The notes beneath the pieces are model-generated. The model ran no database searches and had not been told where the DNA came from. It worked only from the letters and a program-made list of their open reading frames with translations. Positions 34,784 through 63,203 of a stretch of DNA of 64,000 nucleotides are shown in pieces. The translations under genes and the position numbers were made by a program. Source of the stretch: Ascidia mentula (Eukaryota; Chordata; Ascidiacea; Phlebobranchia; Ascidiidae); assembly GCA_947561715.1 (NCBI GenBank), contig OX387200.1, positions 9,116,501 through 9,180,500 of the forward strand, in the 5' to 3' direction. Position 1 is the stretch's first letter; each line of letters starts with the position of its first letter.

Positions 34784-37700
34784 CAACATGCGATACAAAG
34801 TTATCTGAATTAAATCATTCCATCACAAAAGTAATCTGCCCTGAGAATTGCCTGAAGAAAGACACGGATTTGTTTGGAACAGATGATTATGCAAAGGGTC
34901 CCCTGTGTCTTGCTGCGATGCACGCCGGTTTAATTGACAGTGAGTCAAAGGCTTATGTACAGACTAGCTGTGGTTTGTCTAGTTAATTCAAGTTACATGT
35001 GTTTTGAGTGCTGTGAAAAAAACAATTTATATTTGCATATTTGAAAATTTTCTCAACAAAAAACTAGTTTATATTTGACTATTTGGAAAACTCAATAACA
35101 CGTTTATCTTGAGAGCAGCATACAGGTGTATATACTGTTTCGACCTATAAGGTCCCATCAGTGCAGCTACTGACTGTGGCACTGGACTAGCTTTTACACT
35201 AGCAGGCACACAGATTTCCACTTTGTGGTAGCTTTCGGTCAATGTCGATCCGTTGGCTACTTAAACAACAGTGTGTACACCTGTCTGCGGCTCTCAATGA
35301 TTATCATAGCTCTTTTGAACATATAAGTTTATCTTCTTGCTAAGACGGAGGAGGTTACTTCGAAGTTTTTAAAAGTGACCCACAAACTAAATACAGCGGA
35401 TCTTATCGAAACGGAATCACCAGCATGTCTTGTTCCTCCGCAAACGTTACATATTCCTTTGAAAGTAAGTGTTTCTTGCAGTCAACTTCCACCAACTTAA
35501 CAATAACGTCTTTTTAATTCAGTGAAATGCAGCACGATTGGAAATTCCGAGTTTTCTATCACCGAAGTTTTCTGTCCTCCAAATTGTTCGTCAAATAACG
35601 TGTGCGGGACAAATTTGTTCAATACAAATTCATCTGTCTGTGCGGCATCCATACATGCTGGCATTTTGTCTGGTCAGTATACCGTATATATATCGATCAA
35701 ACACGATTTTTGTTGCCTTGACCATCTTTGTGGTGTTTATTCCAAGAATCTGAAAGTATTTCCACGTTAATTGTTGCAGATAATGGTGGAATGGTGACAT
35801 TTCATTCCAAAGAATCTTTTGATCATTTATTTGTTGGATCGACCTCGCATGGAATAATAAGTATATCTTGCAATTTTTCGACAAAGCTATTTTCATTTCC
35901 AAGTAAGTGATGCCAAAATAGCCAAAAAATCATTTTTTTTAACATGTGTACCGTGTGTGCGTTAATTGCGTCAGTTATTCGATACACCCAGGTGACATAT
36001 TCCACGATTTCGAAACAAATTATTACATTTAGGCAACAGAGTTTGTTCGAGAGAGTGCAAAAACAACGGCAAGTGCGTATCTGGAGCGAATCAAGACCAT
36101 TGTTCGTGTAGAGTCGGAACAAAAGGCAAAGGCTGTGAAATAGGTGAGTTAATTTACCATCTCGCAATTCCCGCGTTATTTTATGTGAAAAAAGGTTCTA
36201 TTCCATGGTTACAATGCCTTCGAAACGTCTACTCTACTTAGGATGATTAATAGCATATTAGCTTTGGATTTTCTCCAATATTTTGCGCAATTTTAGAGTA
36301 ATATTATTTTAAGGCAGAAACAACTCGTATATGCTCTTGCATGACAAGGCGGATCGCCCATCTGCGTCATGCACGACTTTACTTTCGGCGATCTCAGCTA
36401 TCATGTATTAATCATAAGGTTCACCGGCATCGCAGTCAAGCCGGAATAAAGCCATATACATAGATCAAAGAAAATGAATGAGGGGTTAATTTCAGTGATT
36501 ATGATGCGGTGTTTACCACTACCTCACACCAAACTGCTACTCTTGCCCACTAAACGACAACCGTATATCAAGCCTGCGATTAAATCAAAGTGGAGTTTCC
36601 AGAGTCAGAGTTTTTAATGCGCCTATATGGGACGATGCACAGTCCTATATACGCAAAACTATACAAAAGTAACTTGAGGGTTGTTCGCTTGTAGATCAAA
36701 ACAACTAATTCCCTGATGTTCATCTACTTAAGATGATTAATAGCATATTAGCTTCGGATTTCCCATTCAAAGTTATCAACTCCAACTATTTTGCACCCAA
36801 ATATATTGGAGAAACTTATCTCTAACGTTTGGAATTGTTATTTGTCTGTATTGCTTCTCATCAATCACGGGATAAATATTTTTATATTTTCCTGTAGATA
36901 TCGATGAATGCTTGTTGAAATCGGACAATTGCCATCCAAACGCTACTTGCATCAACACGGTTGGAAGTTTTCAATGTTCCTGTAACTCATATTTCACTGG
37001 AAACGGAACATTTTGCGGTAGATTTGTTTGTGTGTTTTTCTAATACCTCTATCACAATAACGACATGCACCGAAATGATACCTCACTGTAGCGTTTTCTT
37101 AATATTTTGAAGATAATTTTTTTTTTAATTATGCTCGCTAATAGTTTGTTTTCGTTTCTAACTGTTAAATTTCCGGCGTTTCTCGTGAAGATCTTTATTT
37201 TATGCCACACGTCAACATCACGTGACTTGCGTAGATTGATTTTTCTACCCAAATGTATTCGGGTAAAATTTCCGAGAAAATTTAAATGAAACACTGCGAT
37301 GTATACTGTTTTAACGCTTGGAAATGTTGCCTTTTTGTATTGTTTCTCAGTATATCTGAATATTTTTGCACTATTCTGCAGATATCGATGAATGTTTGTT
37401 AGATTCAAACAATTGTCATCCAAACGCTACTTGCATCAACACAGTTGGAAGTTTTCAATGTTCTTGTAACACGAATTTTACTGGAAACGGAACAACTTGC
37501 GGTAGTCTTGTTTATGTGTTTTTCTATTACATAAAAGATGTCACTAAAAGCTTGTTTTTTTCAACTATTAAATTTCTACCGTTTCTTGTAAAGATTATTA
37601 TTTTATTTCCCATGTTAAGTTATGTGAATTGGAGAATGCAATTTCCTTCTGGGAAGTGTATTCGAATCCAACCTTCCTGAAAGCATTAAATAACTTTTAG

Positions 37701-40700
37701 GCCTACACTTTATTTCTAACGAATTGTGGCTTGCCTAAGTAGTTTTCGGGTAATATCCAAATTCTGCCATGCAGAAGAACAGTAGGCTTATTCAGCAATA
37801 AAATATGCCTGGCAGCGTCAATAACATTTTACGTCACTGAATGTTGTGTCATAAGGTTTTTTGTGTAAAAGATATGCGTCGCAACGAAAATAAACAAAGT
37901 CATTTTGGAAAATGATTTTTTGGTGTTACATAGTTTTAGGATAGTCATCGCAACGACTATTTTGAGTGTATAATTTTCTTTTCAATCTTCAGCAAAGGCA
38001 CTTGCTGCTGCCACATCTAGAAAATTGCTGGCAACCCCTGTGCGGGTCGCGACCCACATGTAAAACATGAAAGATAGTTGTATACCCTTCTGTACAGATA
38101 TCGATGAATGTCTGTGGAATTTTGACAATTGCCATCCAAACGCTACTTGCATCAACACGGTTGGAAGTTTTCAATGTTCCTGTAACTCATATTTCACTGG
38201 AAACGGAACATTTTGCGGTAGATTTGTTTGTGTGTTTTTCTAATACCTCTATCACAATAACGACATGCACCGAAATGATACCTCACTGTAGCGTTTTCTT
38301 AATATTTTGAAGATAATTTTTTTTAATTATGCTCGCTAATAGTTTGTTTTCGTTTCTAACTGTTAAATTTCCGGCGTTTCTTGTGAAGATCTTTATTTTA
38401 TGCCACATGTCAACATCACGTGACTTGCGTAGATTGATTTTTCTACCCAAATGTATTCGGGTAAAATTTCAGAGGAAATTTAAATGAAACATTGCAATGT
38501 ATACTGTTGTAACGCTTGGAAATGTTGCTTGTCTGTCTTGTTTCTCAGTATATCTGAATATTTTTGTACTATTTTGCAGATATCGATGAATGTTTGTTGG
38601 ATTCAAACAATTGTCATCCAAACGCTACTTGCATCAACACGGTTGGAAGTTTTCAATGTTCTTGTAACACGAATTTTACTGGAAACGGAACAACTTGCGG
38701 TAGTCTTGTTTATGTGTTTTTCTATTACATAAATGATGTTACTACAAGCTTGTTTTTATTTTCAACTTTTAAATTTCTACCGTTTTTTTGTAAAGATTAT
38801 TATTTTATTTCCCTCGTTATGCTATGTGAATTGGAGAATGCAATTTCCTTCTGGAAAGTGTATTCGAATCCAACCGTACTGAAAGCATTAAATGAAATTA
38901 GGCCTACATTTTGTGGCTTGCCTAAGTAGTTTTCGGGTAATATCCAAATTCTGCCAGAAGAGCAGTATTTAGTTGTAAAATATGCCTGGCTGCGTCAGTA
39001 ACATTTTACGTCACTGAATGTCGTGTCATAAGGTTTTTGTGTGAAAGATTATGCGTCACAACGAGAATAAACAAAGTCATTTTGCAAAATGATTTTTGGG
39101 TGTTACATAGTTTTAAGATAAACATCGCAACGACTATTTTGAGTGTATAATTTTCTTTTCAATCTTCAGCAAAGGCACTTGCTGCTGCCTCATCTAGAAA
39201 ATTGCTGGCAACCCCTGTGCGGGTCGCGACTTACGTGTAAACATGAAAGATAGTTGTATACCCTTCTGTACAGATATCGATGAATGCTTGTGGAATTTGG
39301 ACAATTGCCATCCAAACGCTACTTGCATCAACACAGTTGGAAGTTTTCAATGTTCATGTAACACGAATTTTACTGGAAACGGAACAACTTGCGGTAGATG
39401 TGTTTATTTGCTTTTCTTTTATCTCTGTCACAAAAAACGATATTTCTGTGCACCGAAAAGATACTGCAGTGCAGTGTTTTTTTGAAACCCAGTTTTTCTT
39501 TTAAATGATGTGCGCAGAACATTTTATAACCAAACTTGTTAAATTGATACCGTTTCTTGTAAAGACCTTTTTTGTGCAGCCGGTCAAGTCACGTATATTG
39601 CGAAAAGACATATTTTAAAGCAAAACGTATTCGAATAAAATTTGCGAGGAAATTTAAATGAAACACTGCATTGCATACTGTTGTAACGCTTGGAAATGTT
39701 GCTTGTCTGTCTTGTTTCTCAGTATATCTGAATATTTTTGTATTATTCTGTAGATATCGATGAATGTTTGTGGGATTTGGACAATTGTCATCCAAACGCT
39801 ACTTGCATCAACACGGTGGGAGGGTTTCAATGTTCATGTAACTCCGATTTCACTGGAAACGGAACATTATGTGGTAGGTTTGTTTTGTGTGTTTTTTTAC
39901 TGCCTCTATCACAAAATGATATTGCACAAAAAAAAATTAAGCTTTTGAATAAAATTTCCATGGAAATTTGCAAAAATATTGAAAGTTTTGAATTGTTGAT
40001 TTTAAAAGGAAAATATTTAGTGTGTTTTTTGCAGTTTTTTCCGGTTACGAAACTTGTGGGGATGTTGTTCCCCGAACGAACAATGAAGCGGGAGGAATTT
40101 ACAAAGTGTATCCGGATGGAGAAAGAGGTCGTGGAATTGAAGTTTATTGTGATTTCGTAACTGACGGCGGAGGATGGTTGGTAAGCTGCTGTATTTTGTT
40201 TCACCGGGCAAGCAATATGTTACCAATTTCTTGCGCCAAGCGGTGGCGCATCACAACATTCCCAATCCTTCATCGTTTCAAATATAATATATAGATTGTT
40301 ATATACAGTTCAAATCTTTCTAGAAGGTATATTGATAGGTAGCGTTGTTTTGAATACTCACACATTTCGCTAAAAAGGTGATTGTGGCCCAGGATTGTGG
40401 CCAACAAACTTGCATTAAAATTTTATGAAACTTACCAAAATTCAACCAAAAAACCTTGAATAAATAAATGCTAGGTTCCGTCGTTACGTGGTACAACAAA
40501 AAGTTTGGTCTAAGAAAAGCTGTCACGAAACACATCAACTGTTCACAAAGCCCAGCATTATTCGTTCATGATGTCCGTAAACAGGGTCCACTGTCTTTTG
40601 CGCTGGATGGAGACGTTTCAGCGCACACTCACATAGCATTCTGAACCATATAACTATTTGGCAGTGTCGCATACATCACGTGACCGTGTTTTTATGATGT

Positions 40701-42246
40701 CATGGTTTCGCCCATTACGTAAGGCGACCCTGCTAATATAGCAAAATCGGTCAAACAAGAAACCTCTTGTACTTACTTACGCAGTCCAAACCAAATACTT
40801 TGAGAAAACGAACCGTGACACAGGTTGCGATATTGCAACAAAAATGTCTTTTTTGTTTCTTAGTGCGGAATGTGATTGTAAACTCGCAATTTGCATGCAA
40901 AAAAATAACACAGTTATCTTAGCTGCAGACTTATTCTATGCTAATAGCGCAATGTATTTAGCTGTTTCAGAGACGACAGGATGGTTCCGAAAACTTCACA
41001 AGGGGTTGGAGCGATTATTTGAAAGGTTTTGGAAACTTAAGCGGCGAGTTTTGGCTGGGTAAAAATTTGAAACAATGTGTTTTTTTTTAAAGTTGTTTAA
41101 TTGCTTCCGGTCTTATAGGTCTTGAAAACATTCACCAAATCACAAACAGTGGGAAATACGAAATGAGAGTCGACATGGAGGATTTTGAGAGGAATGTTTC
41201 TTACGCCTTGTATAAGTATGGAAACACCTACACACATAAAATGCGGGTTTTGCAATTAGCCTATACACTTTTGCAGATGCTTTTCGGTTGGGAAAGCAAC
41301 GGACTTCAACATGACTTGGACAAACTTTTCAGGCCCAGCAGGTTAATTTTATTTAAGTATGCCAATGGCATTTTACCATATCCGAAAAACTTCGGATGAA
41401 TGGTGTTGTTCATCTTTTCACATGCAGAGCAATAGAATGGAAAACAAATCTTATAACACTCACGTATTTATAGGATACAGGTTGTTGCATTTAACATAGC
41501 ACAGGCAAGTAAAAATGACGTTGGATTGGTTGCGGCACATTCCACAAATCACGTGACTTTGGCATGAAAGCGCACCTTTGCTGTCGTGCATATGTAATGA
41601 GGCGTGACCACAACAACAGGAATTGATGAATTCCCTCAATTTTCTGATAAACCAGATTTTCTCTTATTTCCCCTTACCCTACGAACAAAGGGATGTGCCG
41701 GGACATTCGGTCATACCGAACACTCGGATTTGACCGAACTAGGTGTTTTTGTTCAATATTCGGCGAATCTGAATTTTATGCACGTAAATATCGACCATAA
41801 CGAAGCAAAATTAACGCATAATCAGAATAAAATTATGATGGTATTGGGGAAAATCTAAACTGTGTGTGTAATTTTGTCGACCAATGTGTCGATTTATGAT
41901 GCCATTGAACATTTGGATTCGGTCGAATATTGGGTGCAGGTATTAGGAATCTATTTTGTTTCGGTACACACAGTACTAACGCATATTTCAATTGCTAGGA
42001 AGCGGTCTAAGAAATGCAACAGCATTTTCTACCTATGACAAAGATCAAGATCAGCATCTCGACAATTGCGCAGCTAGATTCAAAGGTGGATGGTGGTTTA
42101 CGTCTTGCCACGGCGGTAATCCAAACGGATTTTACTACGGAGGACCGCATGAGTCATATGCTGACGGGGTTTGTTGGCAACCTTTTCGTGGATTCCATTA
42201 TTCACTAAAAAAAATGGAATTGAAAGTTCGACGTACATTTACATAA
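34784..42246 (+). CDS. LCCL-LCCL-EGF-cbEGF(6)-fibrinogen domain protein, copy 1 (first exon not located)
   Basis: Probable secreted lectin-like protein. Exons: 34784-34939 and 35345-35464 (LCCL 1: [41 protein letters not shown]); 35523-35672 and 35780-35902 (LCCL 2: [18 protein letters not shown]); 36033-36143 ([13 protein letters not shown]...[13 protein letters not shown]); six 120-bp DIDEC-type EGF exons at 36898, 37382, 38098, 38580, 39274, 39754; then fibrinogen exons 40035-40180, 40962-41058, 41119-41215, 41277-41341, 41999-42246. About 676 residues from LCCL 1 to stop, all phases consistent, mostly phase 1. The FReD has [39 protein letters not shown] (Ca site), GGWW and a C-terminal KKMELKVRR. 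EGFs show [12 protein letters not shown] (Asn-hydroxylation pattern). The start and signal peptide are not identified; an in-frame ATG at 34768 lacks a signal sequence and overlaps a splice acceptor. Confidence 0.85.
35109..35297. mobile_element. MITE-like element in the LCCL 1 intron, copy 1
   Basis: 189 bp with imperfect terminal inverted repeats: TTGAGAGCAGCATACAGGTG at the left, and the reverse complement of TTGAGAGCCGCAGACAGGTG at the right. Its interior carries the gtttcgacct..aaggtc core and ccactttgtgg shared with the repeat at 2738. The same element sits at the same intron position in copies 2 and 3, so it predates the triplication. Confidence 0.7.
36410..36640 (+). repeat. copy of the upstream region inserted in the intron before the first cbEGF exon, copy 1
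   Basis: About 230 bases, including atcgcagtcaagccggaata and gattatgatgcggtgtttac, repeat 33885-34120 of the upstream region in the same orientation. Unit 2 keeps only the left half (about 48545-48667). Unit 3 has none, joining 59947 directly to the sequence past the insert. It may carry promoter-like sequence inside the gene. Confidence 0.8.
36898..39873 (+). repeat. internal tandem array of EGF exon pairs, copy 1
   Basis: Six 120-bp cbEGF exons are arranged as three two-exon blocks with a period of about 1.2 kb (starts 36898/37382, 38098/38580, 39274/39754). Introns between blocks are also nearly identical, for example after 37017 and 38217. Every exon starts with AT and ends with a lone G (phase 1-1), so whole modules can be gained or lost without frameshift. 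Sequons NAT and NGT recur in each module. Confidence 0.9.
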
Positions 42247-45795: not shown

Positions 45796-46921
45796 CTATA
45801 TACAGCATATTGCGTGTCAGTAAATATAGTTTTACCTCCGATCATCGCGATTGTTGCGCAAACAAGGGCGAAATCAGTCGCTTGTGAATAACAATTTTAA
45901 TTAAATTATAATGCATTATAAAAAGATGGGCAAAATGATTGGTAATACCCCCAATTAAGCCTTTTTTTCGTCCTTACCTTCAAAGGGGTAAGTTATCCGG
46001 TGCGACTTAACAGTGCACTTCGTCCATTAAAAATTTTCTATGTGACGTTGCAGCACATTGTTCCACCAGACCAGGCGTGCAGAACTCAATCAGGGATTTG
46101 TGCCATTATTGTTAATGTTTTCTTTGGACTATGTTCTTGACAATCTCATCAGCTATAATACATGGATCATAAGGTTTATTTGCATCGCAGTCAAGCCGGA
46201 ATAAAGCCAAAGATCAAAGAAAATGAATGAAGGGTTTATTTCAGTGATGATGATGCGGTGTTTACCATTACCTCACACCAAATTGTTTCTCTGGCCCACT
46301 AAACAACAACCGTATATCAAGCCTGCGATTAAATCAACGTACAGTTGAGTTTCGCAGAGTCAGAACTTTGAATGCGGCTATATGGGACGATGTATTATTG
46401 CATTTAGTTACATATTTAGTGTTTGTAAAACCTAATCAAAATAGACAATAGCACAAGTAGATTGATTGATTAAAGGTAATTATCACACATTTAATGACGG
46501 GTTTTCATAAAGGTTGGCCGAGGTTAAACCACAACATTGCAGTTGTCTTTGTTATAGTTATTCGTCGAGGTCAATCTCTGCAAGGTAAACAAACCCAGGA
46601 AGTATCAGTATTTTTGTTGAACGTGAGGTAAATGTCTCACACACGATAAATTGTCGAAACGTATAGTACCAAGCTAACTACAACCACGCCTACCAAGTGA
46701 CTGGATGCTTTTCCTTGTATATATTAAAATAATAGGCTGTCTGAATCGAAAACTTGATCTTTAAAGTAGACAGAATCTAAACCCAGATATGAAACTTTCC
46801 AAAGCCCACGACAGCAATTAGCCGATAGGAAATGTTTGAAACAAGTGTTTCTGATTGCCGTCAGTTGGTTTATTTTTATTTTTGTTTCATTTTGCTGTCT
46901 GAATCATGTTCGAAATTTCAG

Positions 46922-49900
46922 CAACATGCGATACAAAGTTATCTGAATTAAATCATTCCATCACAAAAGTAATCTGCCCTGAGAATTGCCTGAAGAAAGA
47001 CACGGATTTGTTTGGAACAGATGATTATGCAAAGGGTCCCCTGTGTCTTGCTGCGATGCACGCCGGTTTAATTGACAGTGAGTCAATAGCTTATGTACAG
47101 ACAAGCTGTGGTTTGTCAAGTTAAATCCAGCTATGCTTTTTATTTGCATATTTAAAAAGTTTTCTCAACAAAAAAACTAGTTTATATTTGACTATTTGGA
47201 AAACTCAATAATACGTTTATCTTGAGAGCAGCATACAGGTGTATATACTGTTTCGACCTGTAAGGTGTCATCAGTGCAGCTACTGATTGTGGCACTGGAC
47301 TAGCTTTTACACTAGCAGGCACACAGATTTCCACTTTGTGGTAGCTTTCGATCAATGTCGATCCGTTGGCTACTTAAACAACAGTGTGTACACTTGTCTG
47401 CGGCTCTCAATGATTATCATAGCTCTTTTGAACATATATAAGTTTATCTTCTTGCTAAGACGGAGGAGGTTACTTCGAAGTTTTCAAAAGTGACCCACAA
47501 ACTAAATACAGCGGATCTTTTCGAAACGGAATCACCAGCATGTCTTGTTCCTCCGCAAATGTTACATATTCCTTTGAAAGTAAGTGTTTCTTGCAGTCAA
47601 CTTCCACCAACTTAACAATAACGTCTTTTTAATTCAGTGAAATGCAGCACGATTGGAAATTCCGAGTTTTCTATCACCGAAGTTTTCTGTCCTCCAAATT
47701 GTTCGTCAAATCACGTGTGCGGGACAAATTTGTTCAACACAAATTCATCTGTCTGTGCGGCATCCATACATGCTGGCATTTTGTCTGGTCAGTATACCGT
47801 ATATATATCGATCAAACACGATTTTTGTTGCCTTGACCATCTTTGTGGTGTTTATTCCTCGAATCTAAAAGAATGGAGAAAAAGGAAGAATTGAAAGTAT
47901 TTCCACGTTAATTGTTGCAGATAATGGTGGAATGGTGACATTTCATTCCAAAGAATCTTTTGATCATTCATTTGTTGGATCGACCTCGCATGGAATAATA
48001 AGTATATCTTGCAAGTTTTCGACAAAGCTATTTTCATTTCCAAGTAAGTGATGCCAAAATAGCCTAAAAATCATTTTTTTTAAACATGTGTTACGTGTGT
48101 GCGTTAATTGCGTCAGTTATTCGATACACCCAGGTGACATATTCCACGATTTCGGAACAAATTATTACATTTAGGCAACAGAGTTTGTTCGAGAGAGTGC
48201 AAAAACAACGGCAAGTGCGTATCTGGAGCGAATCAAGACCATTGTTCGTGTAGAGTCGGAACAAAAGGCAAAGGCTGTGAAATAGGTGAGTTAATTTACC
48301 ATCTCGCAATTCCCGCGTTATTTTATGTGAAAGAAGTTTCTATTCCATGGTTACAATGCCTTCGAAACGTCTACTCTACTTAGGATGATTAATAGCATAT
48401 TAGCTTTGGATTTTCTCCAATATTTTGCGCAATTTTGGAGTAATATTATTTTAAGGCAGAAACAACTCGTATATGCTCTTGCATGACAAGGCGGATCGCC
48501 CATCTGCCTCACGACTTTACTTTCGGCGATCTCAGCCATCATGTATTAATCATAAGGTTTATTTGCATCGCAGTCAAGCCGGAATAAAGCCATAGATCAA
48601 AGAAAATGAATGAAGGGTTTATTTCAGTGATTATGATGCGGTGTTTACCATTACCTCACACCAAACTATTTTGCACTCAAATATATTGGAGAAACTTATC
48701 TCTAACGTTTGGAATTGTTATTTGTCTGTATTGCTTCTCATCAATCACGGGATAAATATTTTTATATTTTCCTCTAGATATCGATGAATGCTTGTTGAAA
48801 TCGGACAATTGCCATCCAAACGCTACTTGCATCAACACGGTTGGAAGTTTTCAATGTTCCTGTAACTCATATTTCACTGGAAACGGAACATTTTGCGGTA
48901 GATTTGTTTGTGTGTTTTTCTAATACCTCTATCACAATAACGACATGCACCGAAATGATACCTCACTGTAGCGTTTTCTTAATATTTTGAAGATAATTTT
49001 TTTTAATTATGCTCGCTAATAGTTTGTTTTCGTTTCTAACTGTTAAATTTCCGGCGTTTCTCGTGAAGATCTTTATTTTATGCCACACGTCAACATCACG
49101 TGACTTGCGTAGATTGATTTTTCTACCCAAATGTATTCGGGTGAAATTTCCGAGAAAATTTAAATGAAACACTGCGATGTATACTGTTTTAACGCTTGGA
49201 AATGTTGCCTTTTTGTATTGTTTCTCAGTATATCTGAATATTTTTGTACTATTTTGCAGATATCGATGAATGTTTGTTAGATTCAAACAATTGTCATCCA
49301 AACGCTACTTGCATCAACACAGTTGGAAGTTTTCAATGTTCTTGTAACACGAATTTTACTGGAAACGGAACAATTTGCGGTAGTCTTGTTTATGCGTTTT
49401 TCTATTACATAAAAGATGTCACTAAAAGCTTGTTTTTTTTCAACTATTAAATTTCTACCGTTTCTTGTAAAGATTATTATTTTATTTCCCATGTTAAGTT
49501 ATGTGAATTGGAGAATGCAATTTCCTTCTGGGAAGTGTATTCGAATCCAACCTTCCTGAAAGCATTAAATAACTTTTAGGCCTACACTTTATTTCTAACG
49601 AATTGTGGCTTGCCTAAGTAGTTTTCGGGTAATATCCAAATTCTGCCATGCAGAAGAACAGTAGGCTTATTCAGCAATAAAATATGCCTGGCAGCGTCAA
49701 TAACATTTTACGTCACTGAATGTTGTGTCATAAGGTTTTTTGTGTAAAAGATATGCGTCGCAACGAAAATAAACAAAGTCATTTTGCAAAATGATTTTTT
49801 GGTGTTACATAGTTTTAGGATAGTCATCGCAACGACTATTTTGAGTGTATAATTTTCTTTTCAATCTTCAGCAAAGGCACTTGCTGCTGCCACCTCTAGA

Positions 49901-52900
49901 AAATTGCTGGCAACCCCTGTGCGGGTCGCGACCCACATGTAAAACATAAACGGTAGTTGTATACCCTTCTGTACAGATATCGATGAATGTTTGTGGAATT
50001 TTGACAATTGCCATCCAAACGCTACTTGCATCAACACGGTTGGAAGTTTTCAATGTTCCTGTAACTCATATTTCACTGGAAACGGAACATTTTGCGGTAG
50101 ATTTGTTTGTGTGTTTTTCTAATACCTCTATCACAATAACGACATGCACCGAAATGATACCTCACTGTAGCGTTTTCTTAATATTTTGAAGATAATTTTT
50201 TTAATTATGCTCGCTAATAGTTTGTTTTCGTTTCCAACTGTTAAATTTCCGGCGTTTCTTGTGAAGATCTTTATTTTATGCCACATGTCAACATCACGTG
50301 ACTTGCGTAGATTGATTTTTCTACCCAAACGTATTCGGGTAAAATTTCCGAGGAAATTTAAATGAAACATTGCAATGTATACTGTTGTAACGCTTGGAAG
50401 TGGTGCTTGTCTGTCTTGTTTCTCAGTATATCTGAATATTTTTGTATTATTTTGCAGATATCGATGAATGTTTGTTGGATTCTAACAATTGTCATCCAAA
50501 CGCTACTTGCATCAACACGGTTGGAAGTTTTCAATGTTCTTGTAACACGAATTTTACTGGAAACGGAACAACTTGCGGTAGTCTTGTTTATGTGTTTTTC
50601 TATTACATAAATGATGTTACTACAAGCTTGTTTTTATTTTCAACTATTAAATTTCTACTGTTTTTTTGTAAAGATTATTATTTTATTTCCCTCGTTATGC
50701 TATGTGAATTGGAGAATGCAATTTCCCTCTGGGAAGTGTATTCGAATCCAACCTTCCTGAAAGAATTAAATGAAATTAGGCCTACATTTTGTGGCTTGCC
50801 TAAGTAGTTTTCGGGTAATATCCAAATTCTGCCAGAAGAGCAGTATTTAGTAGTAAAATATGCCTGGCAGCGTCAATAACATTTTACGTCACTGAATGTT
50901 GTGTCATAAGGATTTTGTGTGAAAGATTATGCGTCACAACGAGAATAAACAAAGTCATTTTGCAAAATGATTTTTGGGTGTTACATAGTTTTAAGATAAA
51001 CATCGCAACGACTATTTTGAGTGTATAATTTTCTTTTCAATCTTCAGCAAAGGCACTTGCTGCTGCCACCTCTAGATAATTGCTGGCAACCCCTGTGCGG
51101 GTCGCGACCCACATGTAAAACATGAAAGATAGTTGTATACCCTTCTGTACAGATATCGATGAATGTTTGTGGAATTTGGACAATTGCCATCCAAACGCTA
51201 CTTGCATCAACACAGTTGGAAGTTTTCAATGTTCATGTAACACGAATTTTACTGGAAACGGAACAACTTGCGGTAGATGTGTTTATTTGCTTTTCTTTTA
51301 TCTCTGTCACAAAAAAACGATATTTCTGCGCACCGAAAAGATACTGCAGTGCAGTGTTTTTTCGAAACCCAGTTTTTCTTTCAAATGATGTGCGCAGAAC
51401 ATTTTATAACCAAACTTGTTAAATTGATACCGTTTCTTGTAAAGACCTTTTTTGTGCAGCCGGTCAAGTCACGTATATTGCGAAAAGACATATTTTAAAG
51501 CAAAACGTATTCGAATAAAATTTGCGAGGAAATTTAAATGAAACACTGCAATGCATACTGTTGTAACGCTTGGAAATGTTGCTTGTCTGTCTTGTTTCTC
51601 AGTATATCTGAATATTTTTGTATTATTCTGTAGATATCGATGAATGTTTGTGGGATTTGGACAATTGTCATCCAAACGCTACTTGCATCAACACGGTGGG
51701 AGGGTTTCAATGTTCATGTAACTCCGATTTCACTGGAAACGGAACATTGTGTGGTAGGTTTGTTTTGTGTGTTTTTTTACTGCCTCTATCACAAAATGAT
51801 ATTGCACAAAAAAAAATTAAGCTTTTGAATAAAATTTCCATGGAAATTTGTAAAAATATTGAAAGTTTTGAATTGTTGATTTTAAAAGGAAAATATTTAG
51901 TGTGTTTTTTGCAGTTTTTTCCGGTTACGAAACTTGTGGGGATGTTGTTCCCCGAACGAACAATGAAGCGGGAGGAATTTACAAAGTGTATCCAGATGGA
52001 GAAAGAGGTCGTGGAATTGAAGTTTATTGTGATTTCGTAACTGACGGCGGAGGATGGTTGGTAAGCTGCTGTATTTTGTTTCACCGGGCAAGCAATATGT
52101 TACCAATTTCTTGCGCCAAGCGGTGGCGCATCACAACATTCCCAATCCTTCATCGTTTCAAATATAATATAGAGATTGTTGTATTCAGTTCAAATCTTTC
52201 TAGAAGGTATATTGATAGGTAGCGTTGTTTTGAATACTCACACATTTCGCTAAAAAGGTGATTGTGGCCCAGGATTGTGGCCAACAAACTTGCATGGACC
52301 ACCCCAGTATAATGACATTAAAATTTTATGAAACTTACCAAAATTCAACCAAAAAACCTTGAATAAATGCTAGGTTCCGTCGTTACGTGGTACAACAAAA
52401 AGTTTGGTCTAAGAAAAGCTGTCACGAAACACATCAACTGTTCACAAAGCCCAGCATTATTCGTTCATGATGTCCGTAAACAGGGTCCACTGTCTTTTGC
52501 GCTGGATGGAGACGTTTCAGCGCACACTCACATAGCATTCTGAACCATATAACTATTTGGCAGTGTCGCATACATCACGTGACCGTGTTTTTATGACGTC
52601 ATGGTTTCGCCCGTTACGTAAGGCGACCCTGCTATTCTAGTAAAATCGGTCAAACAAGAAACCTCTTTGTACTTACTTACGCAGTCCAAACCAAATACTT
52701 TGAGAAAACGAACCGTGACAAAAATGTCTTTTTTGTTTCTTAGTGCGGAATGTGATTGTAAACTCGCAATTTGCATGCAAAAAAATAACACAGTTATCTT
52801 AGCTGCAGACTTATTCTATGCTAATAGCGCAATGTATTTAGCTGTTTCAGAGACGACAGGATGGTTCCGAAAACTTCACAAGGGGTTGGAGCGATTATTT

Positions 52901-54081
52901 GAAAGGTTTTGGAAACTTAAGCGGCGAGTTTTGGCTGGGTAAAAATTTGAAACAATGTGTTTTTTTTTAAAGTTGTTTAATTGCTTCCGGTCTTATAGGT
53001 CTTGAAAACATTCACCAAATCACAAACAGTGGGAAATACGAAATGAGAGTCGACATGGAGGATTTTGAGAGGAATGTTTCTTACGCCTTGTATAAGTATG
53101 GAAACACCTACACACATAAAATGCGGGTTTTGCAATTAGCCTATACACTTTTGCAGATGCTTTTCGGTTGGGAAAGCAACGGACTTCAACATGACTTGGA
53201 CAAACTTTTCAGGCCCAGCAGGTTAATTTTATTTAAGTATGCCAATGGCATTTTACCATATCCGAAAAACTTCGGATGAATGGTGTTGTTCATCTTTTCA
53301 CATGCAGAGCAATAGAATGGAAAACAAATCTTATAACACTCACGTATTTATAGGATACAGGTTGTTGCATTTAACATAGCACAGGCAAGTAAAAATGACG
53401 TTGGATTGGTTGCGGCACATTCCACAAATCACGTGACTTTGGCATGAAAGCGCACCTTTGCTGTCGTGCATATGTAATGAGGCGTGACCACAACAACAGG
53501 AATTGATGAATTCCCTCAATTTTCTGATAAACCAGATTTTCTCTTATTTCCCCTTACCCTACGAACAAAGGGATGTGCCGGGACATTCGATCATACCGAA
53601 CACTCGGATTTGACCGAACTAGGTGTTTTTGTTCAATATTCGGCGAATCTGAATTTTATGCACGTAAATATCGACCATAACGAAGCAAAATTAACGCATA
53701 ATCAGAATAAAATTATAATGGTATTGGGGAAAATCTAAACTGTGTGTGTAATTTTGTCGACCAATGTGTCAATTTATGATGCCATTGAATATTTGGATTC
53801 GGTCGAATATTGGGTGCAGGTATTAGGAATCTATTTTGTTTCGGTACACACAGTACTAACGCATATTTCAATTGCTAGGAAGCGGTCTAAGAAATGCAAC
53901 AGCATTTTCTACCTATGACAAAGATCAAGATCAGCATCTCGACAATTGCGCAGCTAGATTCAAAGGTGGATGGTGGTTTACGTCTTGCCACGGCGGTAAT
54001 CCAAACGGATTTTACTACGGAGGACCGCATGAGTCATATGCTGACGGGGTTTGTTGGCAACCTTTTCGTGGATTCCATTAA
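46922..54081 (+). CDS. LCCL-LCCL-EGF-cbEGF(6)-fibrinogen domain protein, copy 2, with premature stop in the last exon
   Basis: Same gene as copy 1. Exons: 46922-47077, 47460-47579, 47638-47787, 47921-48043, 48175-48285; cbEGF exons starting 48778, 49260, 49977, 50458, 51153, 51634 (120 bp each); FReD exons 51915-52060, 52842-52938, 52999-53095, 53157-53221, 53879-54081. All internal exons are open and in phase. In the last exon the Tyr codon TAT after GGATTCCAT has become TAA, and there is also a net +1 base before the KMELKVRR codons, so the final 15 residues of the fibrinogen fold are lost. Predicted length from LCCL 1 is 661 residues. Whether the shortened domain folds is uncertain, so this may be an incipient pseudogene. 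Another visible change is Asn to Lys in LCCL 2 (tgcaagttttcg). Confidence 0.82.
47222..47410. mobile_element. MITE-like element in the LCCL 1 intron, copy 2
   Basis: Positional counterpart of the element at 35109-35297 with the same inverted ends and core. Confidence 0.65.
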
Positions 54082-54821: not shown

Positions 54822-56737
54822 TTGTAACTTTCAGGGGTGCCGCGAGCTTTTCTCTCTATTCACTGTTGGGATTTTTCACCGTGCGGTTTCTTACTAGTGT
54901 AATGCCTAGATATAGGGCAAAAATTTTATAATCACAACACCTAGAATCAGACAGAAAGGCTGATGGGCAGTAAAGCATTTTATTTAACTTACATTTTTAA
55001 GGAATTTATATTTATTAAGTAAAAAAAAACAAATATCGATTTTGCCATTTTGAACAAATTTATACATAAATTTCTATATTAACGAATTTCCTTGTATTGG
55101 ACACACACGCTATTTTGTTTGAGGTTGCAACCTTGCAGTTCTGGTAAATGAGACAACTATCCACGTTTTTACATATGGTCTGGTTTATGACTAATGCTCG
55201 ATGAAGTGATACAGGTTACACAGGTATAATATCTATATACATTTTCGTTTCGTGTTCAAACTAGAATTTCACATGGAAAGTGGTGTACAGAATACGGATA
55301 TGTTGGTGTATATGAATGTATTAGTTTACATTTTTGCACGAGAAATAAATATCGATGATCGAGAATGTTTTTCCATAGCTTGTACTCAAATGTCTATAGA
55401 GTTACACGATATACGTATGTATGCATAGTAGGCTACCTTGACTTACTCAGATTCATGAACTTGTAACTCTTGGTAATAAAACTTTTTTTTATATAAGAAA
55501 CTGCACACTGACACACGTAGTTCGTAAAATACCTTGAAATTTGAAATTATTTTAGTTCTGAAGCAACAATATCACAATAAGAGCTGTAAACGCAGACAAA
55601 CAGACCAAACACGGGAAACACAACAAAACTTACAATGCATACACTAAAAAATGCATGTCTTCTTATACTCGACATGTAGTATGCTTAGTCAGCCCTGTAT
55701 AGAACATTGGCGCTGAGCTTGCAAAAAAGCTTTGATTTGTTTATCTAACACCACTGAAGAAAGCACTGGAAAATATATATGGGCGATTGGCGGTCTTTAA
55801 GACAAATGCACATGAAATTCAGCATTCAGTCGTCACAGGTTAAATTAAAGTTAATAAAAACAATATTTACATTTTGAGTATAGATTCACATCACAAAAAG
55901 CATCAATCGGAAAGTTATCGCGCTATCCATACCTTTATCAGGGAGTCAAACCGCCTGTTATACGAATTCTAGTTCCGATTCAGGCTTTTTAATGTTTTTA
56001 TTATCCGGTTCTGTTCTGGTTCGAGTGTCAAATTTTTTTACCAGGTTCACTTCCAACATGGATTCGAAAAACTTATACGCGAAAGGTTCAGATTCATTCC
56101 CGGTTCAATCAATTTAAAAGTTTTGAGCGAATCAAACGTTTAAGTTTAGTTGCACTTTTTTGTGTTATTTTGAACTTAAAATGTACCTAATTAGCAAGTC
56201 AACTGTATCGTGATGACACAAACGAATTAATTGTTTTCAGCTGTTCAGGCTGAGCAAAAACGTAAATTAAGGTGCATCAGATCGAAAGAGGTTCTATTTT
56301 GATTCAAAATTTCCAGTTCAGTTCTGAGTCGTTTTAATTGTGATTTATCGGTTTAGGTTCAGCTCCGGTTCATAAAAATAAGCCGCTCAAACCGGTTTAG
56401 GGGTTCGGATTTAGTGACGGTTGCACTCCTTGAACTTTATCCTGTGTGAATACGGATAAATTAATGCGGTGTAATGATGACGTAGTAAATGACGGGGCGT
56501 TTTCAAGTGGTTTCCAGAAAGGTCTGAGCAGATGAAGTTTAAGATTTTAGAGAAACTTGGGTTCCATTGCATTTAAAGACAGTTTACATGTTTTCATATT
56601 ACTTATAAGCACAAAAACATATCACATAAGAAATCATAAAAATGTGTCCCAGCAAGACCGTGCAGTTACCGTTAACATATGACAAAGAATATGCAACAAG
56701 TTTAACGTAATCATAAATCCGATTTGAAACCATAATG

Positions 56738-57091
56738 CAGTGGTGGGAAACTACGAGTCACTCAATTGCAGCAAAATGACACCGTGTGTCATGTGTTATA
56801 GCTCTGTCTTGTAGTGTTCCAGTTAGGTGCAATAAGCCTTTGTCGAGATCCAGATCCATTATTCCATTGCTGACGATGATTGCGTTTTGTGTATTGTTTA
56901 TTTATGACAAACGACAAAACAAGTTATTTTACAAAAAATAAAATCATCTTTAAAAGAGCTGTGAAAGATTGACTAAAAAAGTTTTACTCAGCAATGACAG
57001 AACAAGTGAGAAGTTATAAAATGATCTCGCATGCACCTTTAATGTGCTTGCCCGCCCGCGACACCCATTAATCCAAGGTTCCCCACCCCTG
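56738..57091. mobile_element. hAT-like non-autonomous element, unit 3
   Basis: 354-bp counterpart of 45441-45795 with the same CAGTGGTGGGAAAC and CAGGGGTGGGGAAC ends. Confidence 0.6.
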
Positions 57092-58351
57092 CTATATACA
57101 GCATATTGCGTGTCAGTAAATATAGTTTTACGTCCGATCATCGCGATTGTTGCGCAAACAAGGGCGAAATCAGTCGCTTGTGAATAACAATTTTAATTAA
57201 ATTATAATGCATTATAAAAAGATGGGCAAAATGATTGGTAATACCCCCAATTAAGCCTTTTTTTCGTCCTTACCTTTAAAGGGGTAAGTTATCCGTTGCG
57301 ACTTAACAGTGCACTTCGTCCATTAAAAATTTTCTATGTGATGTTGCAGGACATTGTTCCACCAGACCAGGCGTGCAGAACTCAATCAGGGATTTGTGCC
57401 ATTATTGTTAATGTTTTCTTTGGACTATGCTCTTGACAATCTCTTCAGCTATAATACATGGATCATAAGGTTTATTTGCATCGCAGTCAAGCCGGAATAA
57501 AGCCATAGATCAAAGAAAATGAATGAAGGGTTTATTTCAGTGATGATGATGTGTTTTCCACTATATCTCACACCAAACTGTTTCTCTGGCCCACTAAACA
57601 ACAACCGTATATCAAGCCTGCGATTAAATCAACGTAAAGTTGAGTTTCGCAGAGTCAGAACTTTGAATGCGGCTATATGGGACGATGTATTATTGCATTT
57701 AGTTACATATTTAGTGTTTGTAAAACCTAATCAAAATATACAATAGCACAAGTAGATTGATTGATTAAAGGTAATTATCACACATTTAATGACGGGTTTT
57801 CATAAAGGTTGACTGAGGTTAAACCGCGACATTGCATATAGAGGAGGAACAGCAGCTTCTTACCCATTAGTTTTTAAGTGCATTAAGTTAAAATTTTGCT
57901 TCGGAACAGTGGACGGATTCACGGACGATGATACGGTGGTTTCAACACGCACTAACAACGTGGATTGTCTTTGTCATAGTTATTCGTCGAGGTCAATCTC
58001 TGCAAGGTAAACAAACCCAGGAGGTATCAGTATTTTTGTTGATAATATAACGTGAGGTAAATGTCTCACACACGATAAATTGTCGAAACGTATAGTACCA
58101 AGCTAACTACGACCACGCCTACCAAGTGACTGGATGCTTTTCCCTGTATATATTAAAGTATTAAGCTGTCTGAATCAAAAACTTGATCTTTAAAGTAGAC
58201 AGAATCTAAACCCCGATATGAAACTTTCCAAAGCCCACGACAGCAATTAGCCGATAGGAAATGTTTGAAACGAAGTGTTTCTGATTACCGTCAGTTGGTT
58301 TATTTTTATTTTTGTTTCATTTTGCTGTCTGAATCATGTTCGAAATTTCAG

Positions 58352-61300
58352 CAACATGCGATACAAAGTTATCTGAATTAAATCATTCCATCACAAAAGT
58401 AATCTGCCCTGAGAATTGCCTGAAGAAAGACACGGATTTGTTTGGAACAGATGATTATGCAAAGGGTCCCCTGTGTCTTGCTGCGATGCACGCCGGTTTA
58501 ATTGACAGTGAGTCAAAAGCTTATGTACAGACTAGCTGTGGTTTGTCTAGTTAATTCAAGTTACATGTGCTTTGAGTGCTGTGAAAAAAACAATTTATAT
58601 TTGCATATTTGAAAATTTTCTCAACACAAAAACTAGTTTATTTGGAAAACTCAATAACACGTTTATCTTGAGAGCAGCATACAGGTGTATATACTGTTTC
58701 AACCTGTAAGGTCCCATCAGTGCAGCTACTGACTGTGGCACTGGACTAGCTTTTACACTAGCAGGCACACAGATTTCCACTTTGTGGTAGCTTTCGGTCA
58801 ATGTCGATCCGTTGGCTACTTAAACAACAATGTGTACACCTGTCTGCGGCTCTCAATGATTATCATAGCTATTTTGAACATATAAGTTTATCTTCTTCCT
58901 AAGACGGAGGAGGTTACTTCGAAGTTTTTAAAAGTGACCCACAAACTAAATACAGCGGATCTTTTCGAAACGGAATCACCAGCATGTCTTGTTCCTCCGC
59001 AAATGTTACATATTCCTTTGAAAGTAAGTGTTTCTTGCAGTCAACTTCCACCAACTTAACAATAACGTCTTTTTAATTCAGTGAAATGCAGCACGATTGG
59101 AAATTCCGAGTTTTCTATCACCGAAGTTTTCTGTCCTCCAAATTGTTCGTCAAATAACGTGTGCGGGACAAATTTGTTCAATACAAATTCATCTGTCTGT
59201 GCGGCATCCATACATGCTGGCATTTTGTCTGGTCAGTATACCGTATATATATCGATCAAACACGATTTTTGTTGCCTTGACCATCTTTGTGGTGTTTATT
59301 CCAAGAATTTCCACGTTAATTGTTGCAGATAATGGTGGAATGGTGACATTTCATTCCAAAGAATCTTTTGATCATTTATTTGTTGGATCGACCTCGCATG
59401 GAATAATAAGTATATCTTGCAATTTTTCGACAAAGCTATTTTCATTTCCAAGTAAGTGATGCCAAAATAGCCAAAAAATCATTTTTTTTAACATGTGTAC
59501 CGTGTGTGCGTTAATTGCGTCAGTTATTCGATACACCCAGGTGACATATTCCACGATTTCGGAACAAATTATTACTTTTAGGCAACAGAGTTTGTTCGAG
59601 AGAGTGCAAAAACAACGGCAAGTGCGTATCTGGAGCGAATCAAGACCATTGTTCGTGCAGAGTCGGAACAAAAGGCAAAGGCTGTGAAATAGGTGAGTTA
59701 ATTTACCATCTCGCAATTCCCGCGTTATTTTATGTGAAAAAAGGTTCTTTTCCATAGTTACAATGCCTTCGAAACGTCTACTCTACTTAGGATGATTAAT
59801 AGCATATTAGCTTTGGATTTTCTCCAATATTTTGCGCAATTTTAGAGTAATATTATTTTAAGGCAGAAACAACTCGTATATGCTCTTGCATGACAAGGCG
59901 GATCGCCCATCTGCGTCATGCACGACTTTACTTTCGGCGATCTCAGGGACGATGCACAGTCCTATATACGCAAAACTATACAAAAGTAACTTGAGGGTTG
60001 TTCGCTTGTAGATCAAAACAACTAATTCCCTGATGTTCATCTACTTAAGATGATTAATAGCATATTAGCTTCGGATTTCCCATTCAAAGTTATCAACTCC
60101 AACTATTTTGCACCCAAATATATTGGAGAAACTTATCTCTAACGTTTGGAATTGTTATTTGTCTGTATTGCTTCTCATCAATCACGGGATAAATATTTTT
60201 ATATTTTCCTGTAGATATCGATGAATGCTTGTTGAAATCGGACAATTGCCATCCAAACGCTACTTGCATCAACACGGTTGGAAGTTTTCAATGTTCCTGT
60301 AACTCATATTTCACTGGAAACGGAACATTTTGCGGTAGATTTGTTTGTGTGTTTTTCTAATACCTCTATCACAATAACGACATGCACCGAAATGATACCT
60401 CACTGTAGCGTTTTCTTAATATTTTGAAGATAATTTTTTTTTAATTATGCTCGCTAATAGTTTGTTTTCGTTTCTAACTGTTAAATTTCCGGCGTTTCTC
60501 GTGAAGATCTTTATTTTATGCCACACGTCAACATCACGTGACTTGCGTAGATTGATTTTTCTACCCAAATGTATTCGGGTAAAATTTCCGAGAAAATTTA
60601 AATGAAACACTGCGATGTATACTGTTTTAACGCTTGGAAATGTTGCCTTTTTGTATTGTTTCTCAGTATATCTGAATATTTTTGCACTATTCTGCAGATA
60701 TCGATGAATGTTTGTTAGATTCAAACAATTGTCATCCAAACGCTACTTGCATCAACACAGTTGGAAGTTTTCAATGTTCTTGTAACACGAATTTTACTGG
60801 AAACGGAACAACTTGCGGTAGTCTTGTTTATGCGTTTTTCTATTACATAAAAGATGTCACTAAAAGCTTGTTTTTTTCAACTATTAAATTTCTACCGTTT
60901 CTTGTAAAGATTATTATTTTATTTCCCATGTTAAGTTATGTGAATTGGAGAATGCAATTTCCTTGTGGGAAGTGTATTCGAATCCAACCTTCCTGAAAGC
61001 ATTAAATAACTTTTAGGCCTACATTTATTTCTAACGAATTGTGGCTTGCCTAAGTAGTTTTCAGGTAATATCCAAATTCTGCCATGCAGAAGAACAGTAG
61101 GCTTATTCAGCAATAAAATATGCCTGGCAGCGTCAATAACATTTTACGTCACTGAATGTTGTGTCATAAGGTTTTTTGTGTAAAAGATATGCGTCACAAC
61201 GAAAATAAACAAAGTCATTTTGAAAAATGATTTTTTGGTGTTACATAGTTTTAGGATAGTCATCGCAACGACTATTTTGAGTGTATAATTTTCTTTTCAA

Positions 61301-63203
61301 TCTTCAGCAAAGGCACTTGCTGCTGCCACATCTAGAAAATTGCTGGCAACCCCTGTGCGGGTCGCGACCCACATGTAAAACATGAAAGATAGTTGTATAC
61401 CCTTCTGTACAGATATCGATGAATGTCTGTGGAATTTGGACAATTGCCATCCAAACGCTACTTGCATCAACACGGTTGGAAGTTTTCAATGTTCCTGTAA
61501 CTCATATTTCACTGGAAACGGAACATTTTGCGGTAGATTTGTTTGTGTGTTTTTCTAATACCTCTACCACAATAACGACATGCACCGAAATGATACCTCA
61601 CTGTAGCGTTTTCTTAATATTTTGAAGATAATTTTTTTTAATTATGCTCGCTAATAGTTTGTTTTCGTTTCCAACTGTTAAATTTCCGGCGTTTCTTGTG
61701 AAGATCTTTATTTTATGCCACATGTCAACATCACGTGACTTGCGTAGATTGATTTTTCTACCCAAATGTATTCGGGTAAAATTTCAGAGGAAATTTAAAT
61801 GAAACATTGCAATGTATACTGTTGTAACGCTTGGAAATGTTGCTTGTCTGTCTTGTTTCTCAGTATATCTGAATATTTTTGTATTATTCTGTAGATATCG
61901 ATGAATGTTTGTTGGATTCAAACAATTGTCATCCAAACGCTACTTGCATCAACACGGTTGGAAGTTTTCAATGTTCATGTAACACGAATTTTACTGGAAA
62001 CGGAACAACTTGCGGTAGTCTTGTTTATGTGTTTTTCTATTACATAAATGATGTTACTACAAGCTTGTTTTTATTTTCAACTTTTAAATTTCTACCGTTT
62101 TTTTGTAAAGATTATTATTTTATTTCCCTCGTTATGCTATGTGAATTGGAGAATGCAATTTCCTTCTGGAAAGTGTATTCGAATCCAAACGTACTGAAAG
62201 CATTAAATGAAATTAGGCCTACATTTTGTGGCTTGCCTAAGTAGTTTTCGGGTAATATCCAAATTCTGCCAGAAGAGCAGTATTTAGTAGTAAAATATGC
62301 CTGGCAGCGTCAGTAACATTTTACGTCACTGAATGTCGTGTCATAAGGTTTTTGTGTGAAAGATATGCGTCACAACGAGAATAAACAAAGTCATTTTGCA
62401 AAATGATTTTTGGGTGTTACATAGTTTTAAGATAAACATCGCAACGACTATTTTGAGTGTATAATTTTGTTTTCAATCTTCAGCAAAGGCACTTGCTGCT
62501 GCCACCTCTAGAAAATTGCTGGCAACCCCTGTGCGGGTCGCGACTTGCATGCAAAACACATAAACGGTAGCTTGTTAAATTGATACCGTTTCTTGTAAAG
62601 ACCTTTTTTGTGCAGCCGGTCAAGTCACGTATATTGCGAAAAGACATATTTTAAAGCAAAACGTATTCGAATAAAATTTGCGAGGAAATTTAAATGAAAC
62701 ATTGCAATATTTACTGTTGTAACGCTTGGAAATGTTGCTTGTTTGTATTGTTCCTCAGTATATCTGAATATTTTTGTATTATTCTGCAGATATCGATGAA
62801 TGTTTGTGGGATTGGGACAATTGTCATCCAAACGCTACTTGCATCAACACGGTGGGAGGGTTTCAATGTTCCTGTAACTCAGATTTCACTGGAAACGGAA
62901 CATTATGCGGTAGTTTTGTTTTTTGTGTTTTTACTGCCTCTATCACAAAATGATATTGCACAAAAAAAAATTAAGCTTTTGAATAAAATTTGCAAAAATG
63001 TTGAAAGTTTTGAATTGTTGATTTTAAACGGAAAATATTTATTGTGTTTTTTTGCAGTTTTTTCCGGTTACGAAACTTGTGGGGAAGTTGTTCCCCGAAC
63101 GAACAATGAAGCGGGAGGAATTTACAAAGTGTATCCGGATGGAGAAAGAGGTCGTGGAATTGAAGTTTATTGTGATTTCGTAACTGACGGTGGAGGATGG
63201 TTG
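58352..63203 (+). CDS. LCCL-LCCL-EGF-cbEGF(5)-fibrinogen domain protein, copy 3, 3' end beyond the window
   Basis: Exons: 58352-58507, 58904-59023, 59082-59231, 59329-59451, 59582-59692; cbEGF exons starting 60215, 60698, 61413, 61895, 62790 (120 bp each); first FReD exon 63058-63203 ([19 protein letters not shown]). Four more FReD exons are expected to the right. The module equivalent to cbEGF 5 of copies 1 and 2 is gone: a deletion joins the intron at about 62573 (ataaacggtag) to cttgttaaattgatacc. Since the modules are phase 1-1, the frame is kept and the protein is simply one EGF shorter. Copy 3 has Asp to Glu in TCGEVV. Domain roles are as for copy 1. Confidence 0.83.
58668..58856. mobile_element. 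MITE-like element in the LCCL 1 intron, copy 3
   Basis: Positional counterpart of 35109-35297 with the same ends; the core here reads gtttcaacctgtaaggtc. Confidence 0.65.

Follow-up and report, generated by a model that had tools for sequence, protein, structure and literature searches.

LCCL modules are known from cochlin, CRISPLD1/2 (CRISPLD has two of them) and Limulus factor C, and fibrinogen-related domains (FReDs) are known from ficolins, FIBCD1 and MFAP4 and from the fibrinogen-related proteins (FREPs) of mollusks, which carry immunoglobulin-superfamily domains as well. Neither FIBCD1 nor MFAP4 is known to have LCCL or EGF domains. Here we describe a 64,000-nucleotide stretch of the genome of the ascidian Ascidia mentula (hereafter “the window,” G000:C67:9116501-9180500) that carries a tandem array of genes whose predicted products unite the two modules in the order LCCL-LCCL-EGF-cbEGF(n)-FReD, cbEGF being the calcium-binding EGF domain. 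The genome searched comprised 195.8 Mb on 79 contigs.

The LCCL module of cochlin, like factor C, acts in antibacterial defense (PMC10892792). An earlier, sequence-only reading of this DNA had named no characterized protein with this order, and we likewise found none described in the literature searched (most subscription journals lay outside its scope); in the excerpt of PMC3269628, LCCL appears only as a figure-legend abbreviation. We propose that the window genes encode secreted multidomain glycan-recognition lectins, probably immune, a reading to which we assign a probability of about 0.45.

Gene models of the tandem array

The array has five copies: three begin inside the window and the third of these overruns its end. 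The three consecutive genes of the sequence-only reading are thus part of a longer series, with a fourth copy beyond the window and a fifth without detected LCCL exons; tandem duplication itself is confirmed. In the models for copies 1, 3, and 4, whose splice junctions were derived from sequence alone, every intron border is AG/GT and a single frame is predicted to stay open.

Copy 1 has 16 exons (34784-42246, plus strand, AG/GT throughout) and, together with an upstream exon at 34360-34438 (plus strand), gives a predicted protein of 703 residues. The upstream exon (MIRWLQHALTTWVVFVIVIRRGQSLQ), picked by a script for its ATG, hydrophobic stretch and phase-1 donor, is a probable signal-peptide exon, so that the gene would begin before position 34784, where it had first been placed; equivalents exist in copies 3 and 4, and the 5' part differs in copy 2. 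LCCL1 as the N-terminal domain is supported by the LCCL-LCCL genes of another locus (L055), since there a hydrophobic N-terminal peptide, which the copy 1 peptide resembles by eye, continues into LCCL1 without an intron.

By splice borders and Pfam, LCCL1 of copy 1 lies at 34784..35464 (exons 34784-34939 and 35345-35464), LCCL2 at 35523..35902 (exons 35523-35672 and 35780-35902) and the short EGF at 36033..36143. Six cbEGF exons of 120 bases each, phase 1-1, follow at 36898..39873 (starts 36898, 37382, 38098, 38580, 39274, and 39754), all six with the motif C-x-N-x4-F-x-C, and the FReD, also matched in PDB, occupies five exons (F1-F5) at 40035..42246 (40035-40180, 40962-41058, 41119-41215, 41277-41341, and 41999-42246). 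The domain order first read from the letters was borne out: Pfam on the spliced product finds LCCL twice (112.9 bits, cut-off 22.6), EGF_3 and EGF_CA six times each, EGF over seven stretches and one Fibrinogen_C (219.6 bits, cut-off 22; profile positions 4-219 of 221). The LCCL-LCCL-EGF part of copy 3 alone scores 17.7 bits for Pfam EGF, below the cut-off of 21.5.

Copy 2 (46494..54081, plus strand) has LCCL1 at 46922-47579, LCCL2 at 47638-48043, EGF at 48175-48285, six cbEGF at 48778-51753 and FReD at 51915-54081; its last exon is cut short by a premature stop, with loss of the FReD end, its first exon is rearranged, and this copy is probably degrading. The in-window part of copy 3 (57928..63203, plus strand) comprises a predicted signal peptide (57928-58006), LCCL1 (58352-59023), LCCL2 (59082-59451), EGF (59582-59692), five cbEGF (60215-62909) and the first FReD exon (63058-63203). 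Its FReD exons 2-5 lie past the window end, at window-equivalent 64036-65320 (L009), and the 14- and 12-residue FReD stretches that had been claimed for all three genes occur only twice in the window, F2-F5 of the third gene being beyond base 64000. Copy 4 lies directly past the window (window-equivalent 70151-76520), and copy 5 (78420-84282) consists of cbEGF and FReD exons; neither an LCCL nor a short-EGF exon was matched there (blastn, E 1e-6).

The cbEGF exons number 6, 6, 5, 4, and 7 in copies 1-5, the seventh of copy 5 being broken, so that the “five or six” of the sequence-only reading holds for copies 1-3 and not for copies 4 and 5. The cbEGF region (36896-39896 in the window, with its counterparts in copies 2-5) contains repeats offset by ~1.2 kb (two exons) at ~88% identity; because of these repeats and the varying exon numbers, spacer length seems to change as units of one or two exons are duplicated or lost.

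Compared pairwise (six pairs), copies 1-4 show 8-14 differences in 1065 bases (0.75-1.3%) and no indels in their LCCL, EGF and F1-F4 exons, and 37-125 differences in ~2200 bases (1.7-5.7%) with 106-287 gap columns in eight introns. The proportion of synonymous differences (pS) exceeds the nonsynonymous one (pN) in 12/12 comparisons among these copies, small as the numbers are. The coding exons of the array are under constraint relative to the introns.

The LCCL-LCCL-EGF head and its FReD partners

The “local family” first proposed was too small a frame: related heads are listed at dozens of loci spread over several chromosomes, and those that we read have FReDs of three kinds. In a genome search with one LCCL1-exon peptide, 150 of 292 candidates were scored, so that family counts are lower bounds; by our own count, at least 48 of the 150 listed matches have at least 73% identity (contigs C70, C71, C52, C1, C69, and C67). 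We read 17 loci carrying the cassette (A1-A4, L013-L016, L018, L057/L058, L021, L024, L025/L059, L029-L031, and L056) and distinguish four types: type A, the window genes, with 4-6 cbEGF; type B (L013-L016, L018, L057/L058), with no cbEGF match; type C (L021, L024, L025, L029-L031), with further EGF exons; and type D (L056). At L030 the first EGF exon was not found.

Could the LCCL part and the EGF-FReD part be separate neighboring genes wrongly joined in our models? Copy 5, with cbEGF and FReD and no LCCL found, would suit such an error, as would L055, where two LCCL-LCCL gene units have no FReD within the 7 kb read. However, 17/17 cassette loci have FReD exons on the same strand, at most a few kb further downstream, ten of these loci being chosen non-independently (as window copies plus a neighbor, or for closely spaced LCCL and FReD matches), and seven of the nine gene units chosen on LCCL evidence alone have a FReD (L021, L024, L025/L059, L029, L030, L031, and L056). 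The LCCL and EGF exons, moreover, are all phase 1-1, and copies 1-4 have phase 1 at every border of the LCCL and EGF exons and of FReD exon 1, so that we consider a false join highly improbable.

The heads and the FReDs are not related in the same way. LCCL1+LCCL2 identity is 0.60-0.64 between types A and B, 0.66-0.68 between A and C and 0.76-0.84 between B and C. In the last FReD exon, mean identity is 0.68 between type B and 14 exons of a ficolin array on C70, 0.39 between B and A, 0.38 between B and C and 0.23 between A and C, and type A averages 0.64 with six other non-ficolin FReDs. Since slower LCCL evolution could by itself produce such a disagreement between pairwise identities, we used trees and approximately unbiased (AU) tests. 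In the FReD tree of F2+F3+F5 (19 rows), type B groups with two collagen-bearing ficolins (support 100/98), type A with L028 (99/99) and type C with D (98/95), and a single clade is rejected for A+B+C+D (p = 3e-5), A+B (p = 0.0015), B+C+D (p = 0.017) and A+C+D (p = 0.007). The last-exon tree (39 rows) rejects A+B+C (p = 7e-7), A+B (p = 4e-7) and, weakly, B+C (p = 0.037). The LCCL1 domains of types A-D and L055, in turn, are united in one clade (100/97) to the exclusion of LCCL2 and of four poly-LCCL rows, with B placed within the C group (83/91, not strong). Because these FReD clades are rejected while the LCCL1 domains form one clade, the head is common to at least two, probably three, FReD lineages: an MFAP4/FIBCD1-like one (that of the window), a ficolin-type one and a divergent one.

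Some results stand against so clean a story. The last-exon tree does not reject an A+C clade (p = 0.12) and is borderline for B alone (p = 0.065), and in the F2+F3+F5 tree long branches were flagged where D attaches and where the deep groups join one another. On the LCCL side, LCCL1 of type D falls with the L055 genes, which lack a FReD nearby (88/74), and types A-D without L055 do not form a clade in the best tree, though such a clade is not rejected (p = 0.12).

The DNA of type B loci is a mosaic. At L016 (B16), positions 3311-4266, from LCCL1 to the EGF with their introns, match type C at 78%; from ~5694 on, F2-F5 and their introns match ficolin genes, mostly at 77-87%, with no type C match of more than 60 bases there among the matches listed, and FReD exon 1 resembles both (74-77% to type C, 79-80% to the ficolin genes). 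The same mosaic is seen at L057/L058 (B57) and L013 (B13), with 74-75% identity to type C and 79-88% to ficolins. As aligned, the switch falls after the EGF exon and before FReD exon 2, and it could stem from fusion or from later gene conversion, with ficolins as donors to the type B FReDs. A collagen-exon query matched L027 and L019, and weakly L022 and L023, and matched nothing at L009-L011, L013-L016, L018, L057, or L058; the Pfam scan of copy 1 contains no collagen.

The ficolin array itself, at C70:16.87-17.97 Mb (L026, L027, L035-L046), has by our count ~60 FReD last-exon matches among the matches listed, and its L027 gene, with a signal-like peptide and a collagen stalk, is a ficolin. 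Many LCCL1-like matches are listed in the L055 region (C1:4.3-5.5 Mb), and dense LCCL exon matches ~0.5-1.1 kb apart, perhaps from poly-LCCL proteins, occur at C72:5.12-5.18 Mb, C69:1.89-1.91 Mb and C67:1.65 Mb (L001-L008). A mobile element behind the dispersed type C copies was considered and set aside: the stretches shared by six loci span ~1-3.5 kb about the gene, and their ends are ragged and differ from pair to pair (pairwise blastn; terminal repeats and target-site duplications were not searched for). A plasmid megablast of one window stretch gave no match, as expected for an animal gene.

A predicted acetyl-binding site and the variable last exon

Against PDB, the window FReD is closest to MFAP4 (2.1e-60), almost equally close to FIBCD1 (1.2e-59), and near the ficolins (to 1e-55); fibrinogen chains follow at 2.8e-35 at best. 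The modules taken separately would suit a clotting protein, fibrinogen- or factor C-like, since both are found in such proteins (fibrinogen; Limulus factor C); given a FReD nearer to MFAP4, FIBCD1 and ficolins than to fibrinogen chains, and Pfam matches of copy 1 to E 1 that, Fibrinogen_C apart, include neither a fibrinogen-chain family nor trypsin, sushi or C-type lectin, a clotting role seems scarcely credible.

The MFAP4 match invites another explanation, that of an extracellular-matrix protein whose FReD binds fibrillin- or elastin-like partners as that of MFAP4 does, whose cbEGF string is structural and whose LCCL domains bind glycosaminoglycans of the tunic. MFAP4 interacts with elastogenic proteins (PMC11091212), and the hydroxylation-type motifs of the cbEGF repeats and the 26 N-glycosylation sequons of copy 1 point the same way. 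But FIBCD1, a pattern-recognition FReD, scores almost as well, relatives of the window genes carry ficolin-type FReDs and the last FReD exon varies in excess, and we regard a matrix role as unlikely, if worth keeping in view.

In FIBCD1 the acetyl group is held by Cys414 N, His415 N and Tyr431 OH, with Tyr405 assisting, and Arg412, Asn413, His396, and His382 form side pockets (PMC10825690). Aligned to FIBCD1, copies 1-5 all keep Cys414, His415, and Tyr431, with the FIBCD1 spacing in copies 1, 2, 3, and 5; copy 4 has a one-residue insertion near 397 and a two-residue one before 426. The aspartates numbered 393 and 395, which we take to be the calcium site, are kept as well.

If the lectin reading is right, the FReD would be a calcium-dependent binder of acetylated glycans on microbes or other cells, with the cbEGF string as a calcium-stiffened spacer of variable length. 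The paired LCCL head might hold a second partner, such as lipid A, a sulfated glycosaminoglycan or some effector protein, and the molecule would then bridge its target and a host surface or effector in the manner of an opsonin or agglutinin. The analogies behind the head are that whole cochlin binds sulfated glycosaminoglycans (PMC9987951), that the cochlin LCCL acts in innate immunity (PMC10892792) and that LCCL has affinity for lipid A (PMC4067330).

In the last FReD exon, 15 of 82 residue positions differ among copies 1, 3, and 4, vs. eight of 355 in LCCL-LCCL-EGF plus F1-F4 (p = 6e-7; 4/220 in LCCL-LCCL-EGF, 4/135 in F1-F4). When copy 5 is included, the variable positions are 379, 382, 388, 397-399, 404, 405, 412, 416, 425, 427, 430, 432, and 443. 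Seven of these 15 fall in a pocket set of 12 residues (396-400, 403-405, 412, 413, 415, and 416), with a p of 8e-4 that is partly post hoc because we drew the set after seeing the window-copy and ficolin alignments, and eight lie within one residue of a contact named in the FIBCD1 paper (p = 0.003). Acetyl contacts that are mostly kept amid varying neighbors suggest selection. With the same pocket set, pN/pS over 14 ficolin-array exons is 1.33 inside and 0.40 elsewhere, and 0/20,000 random sets reach its pN and 82 its pN minus pS, tests again partly post hoc because the set was written after both alignments had been seen. In the C70 array, residues beside the acetyl contacts are hypervariable and the contacts named in the FIBCD1 paper are not.

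Several points weigh against the lectin reading. Tyr405 is Phe in copies 1, 2, 4, and 5 and Tyr only in copy 3. The clustering of variable residues depends on how the pocket is drawn: only three of the 15 fall on the eight residues named in the FIBCD1 paper, which is not significant (p = 0.16), and omission of copy 4 leaves p = 0.04 for our set and 0.10 for that of the paper. In the ficolin array, too, the paper-named residues have a pN of 0.28, below a pS of 0.43 (1084/20,000 random sets reach that pN). Pairs that include copy 4 or 5, whose 3' part is older overall, have 91.4-92.5% identity in the F4-F5 intron, and part of the last-exon variation therefore reflects age; pN is below pS in that exon in 6/6 pairs. 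The binding roles of LCCL are carried over from vertebrate proteins, in the case of cochlin from a study of the whole protein, and the candidate signal peptide, expression and glycan binding are predictions from the letters of the genome.

Copy 4 deserves separate mention: its last exon carries small insertions, one of a single residue and one of two, as well as many substitutions, while its LCCL exons hardly differ from those of the other copies; recombination with another FReD gene is possible.

Rapid change of the last exon between copies would also suit an egg-coat or gamete (allo)recognition protein, like the Ciona self-sterility proteins v-Themis, the more so as ascidian v-Themis is fibrinogen-like and polymorphic (PMC8849226). 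However, v-Themis genes lie in the first intron of PKD1-like s-Themis genes, and the excerpt mentions no LCCL for v-Themis (PMC8849226). The nearest of the 10 REJ-domain matches listed is ~2.1 Mb away (C67 6.11 and 11.32 Mb, the array being at 9.15-9.20 Mb); with none of the 10 near the array, we dropped v-Themis synteny as a candidate, and a gamete role appears decidedly improbable. The sequence-only reading had left recognition and clotting or matrix side by side; because the acetyl contacts are mostly kept, the last FReD exon is the most variable and some relatives are of ficolin type, recognition fits somewhat better, while a matrix role keeps a small share.

A possible repertoire and comparison with known systems

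A wider proposal, which we hold to be doubtful, is that the head was joined repeatedly (at least twice, probably three times) to different FReD genes, including ficolins, where the junction can still be seen in the DNA, and gave rise to dozens of chimeric lectins with binding-site rims that diversify from copy to copy: a germline-diversified, exon-shuffled repertoire with a FREP-like role. In the lectin reading itself, the family grows by tandem duplication, and its LCCL-LCCL-EGF head has come to be linked with different FReD genes, plausibly via phase-1 introns. Rejection transcripts of Botryllus include ficolin-like sequences with fibrinogen domains (PMC2527998), which fits, by analogy, a place for FReDs in ascidian immunity and is silent on LCCL. 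If the proposal is true, exon shuffling has been caught in a readable state: a single head stands before several FReD partners, the junctions are of phase 1, and the mosaic boundary can be placed between EGF exon and FReD exon 2. LCCL and the ficolin-type FReD, which both have antibacterial roles elsewhere, would be united in a close relative of vertebrates, and a large, diversified ascidian lectin repertoire would become testable. The C70 ficolin array may matter as much as the window genes.

On the minus strand of the window lie an exon of the Sodium:solute symporter family (window 1193-1702, 80.7 bits in Pfam), formin FH2 exons upstream of the array (8751-12863; one of three open reading frames is above the Pfam cut-off, at 42.8 bits, and two are below) and a Selenoprotein S-like exon (31502-31801) that scores 29.1 bits, just below the cut-off of 29.8. 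A large inverted repeat occupies 1768-4332 (arms 1768-2676 and 3426-4332, 99.7% identical, with a self-complementary centre), and related pieces occur at C67:10.74 Mb. In the genome, GH6, a family not known from animals other than tunicates, is matched at two places (32 and 27.8 bits; cut-off 27), and the mitochondrial COX1 has 18 AGA/AGG codons that the ascidian code (table 13) translates as Gly, in contexts that we take to be conserved Gly. Both observations bear out a tunicate origin.

Among known systems, cochlin, CRISPLD1/2 and Limulus factor C likewise have LCCL modules, but their partners are vWA, CAP, or sushi, C-type lectin and protease domains, not a FReD, and the Pfam matches of copy 1 include no vWA (cochlin/vitrin), no CAP (CRISPLD) and no sushi, C-type lectin or trypsin (factor C). 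The literature searched yielded no description of the order of domains found here; the joint occurrence of LCCL and a fibrinogen-related domain does have a precedent, since the apicomplexan CCp/LAP proteins PfCCp1 and PfCCp2 of Plasmodium combine both in one adhesive protein (PMC10892792). Their order differs, however: discoidin-ricin-discoidin, the fibrinogen-related domain, then LCCL and more, with no EGF string mentioned in the excerpt (PMC10892792), and the fibrinogen-related call in LAPs coincides in part with a collagen C-terminal one (PMC11285972). Ascidian v-Themis is likewise a fibrinogen-like recognition protein, but nested in a PKD1-like gene (PMC8849226).

Mollusk FREPs, too, are a multigene FReD family with an N-terminal partner domain; unlike them, copy 1 has no immunoglobulin family among its Pfam matches to E 1. 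FIBCD1 and MFAP4 have the nearest solved FReDs, and the window genes share Cys414, His415, and Tyr431 with FIBCD1. Ficolins, including those of Halocynthia, likewise end in a FReD but have a collagen stalk, in place of which the LCCL genes have LCCL-LCCL-EGF, with no collagen exon found at the type B loci searched or in copy 1; F2-F5 of type B and their introns, however, mostly share 77-88% identity with the genome's own collagen-bearing ficolin genes.

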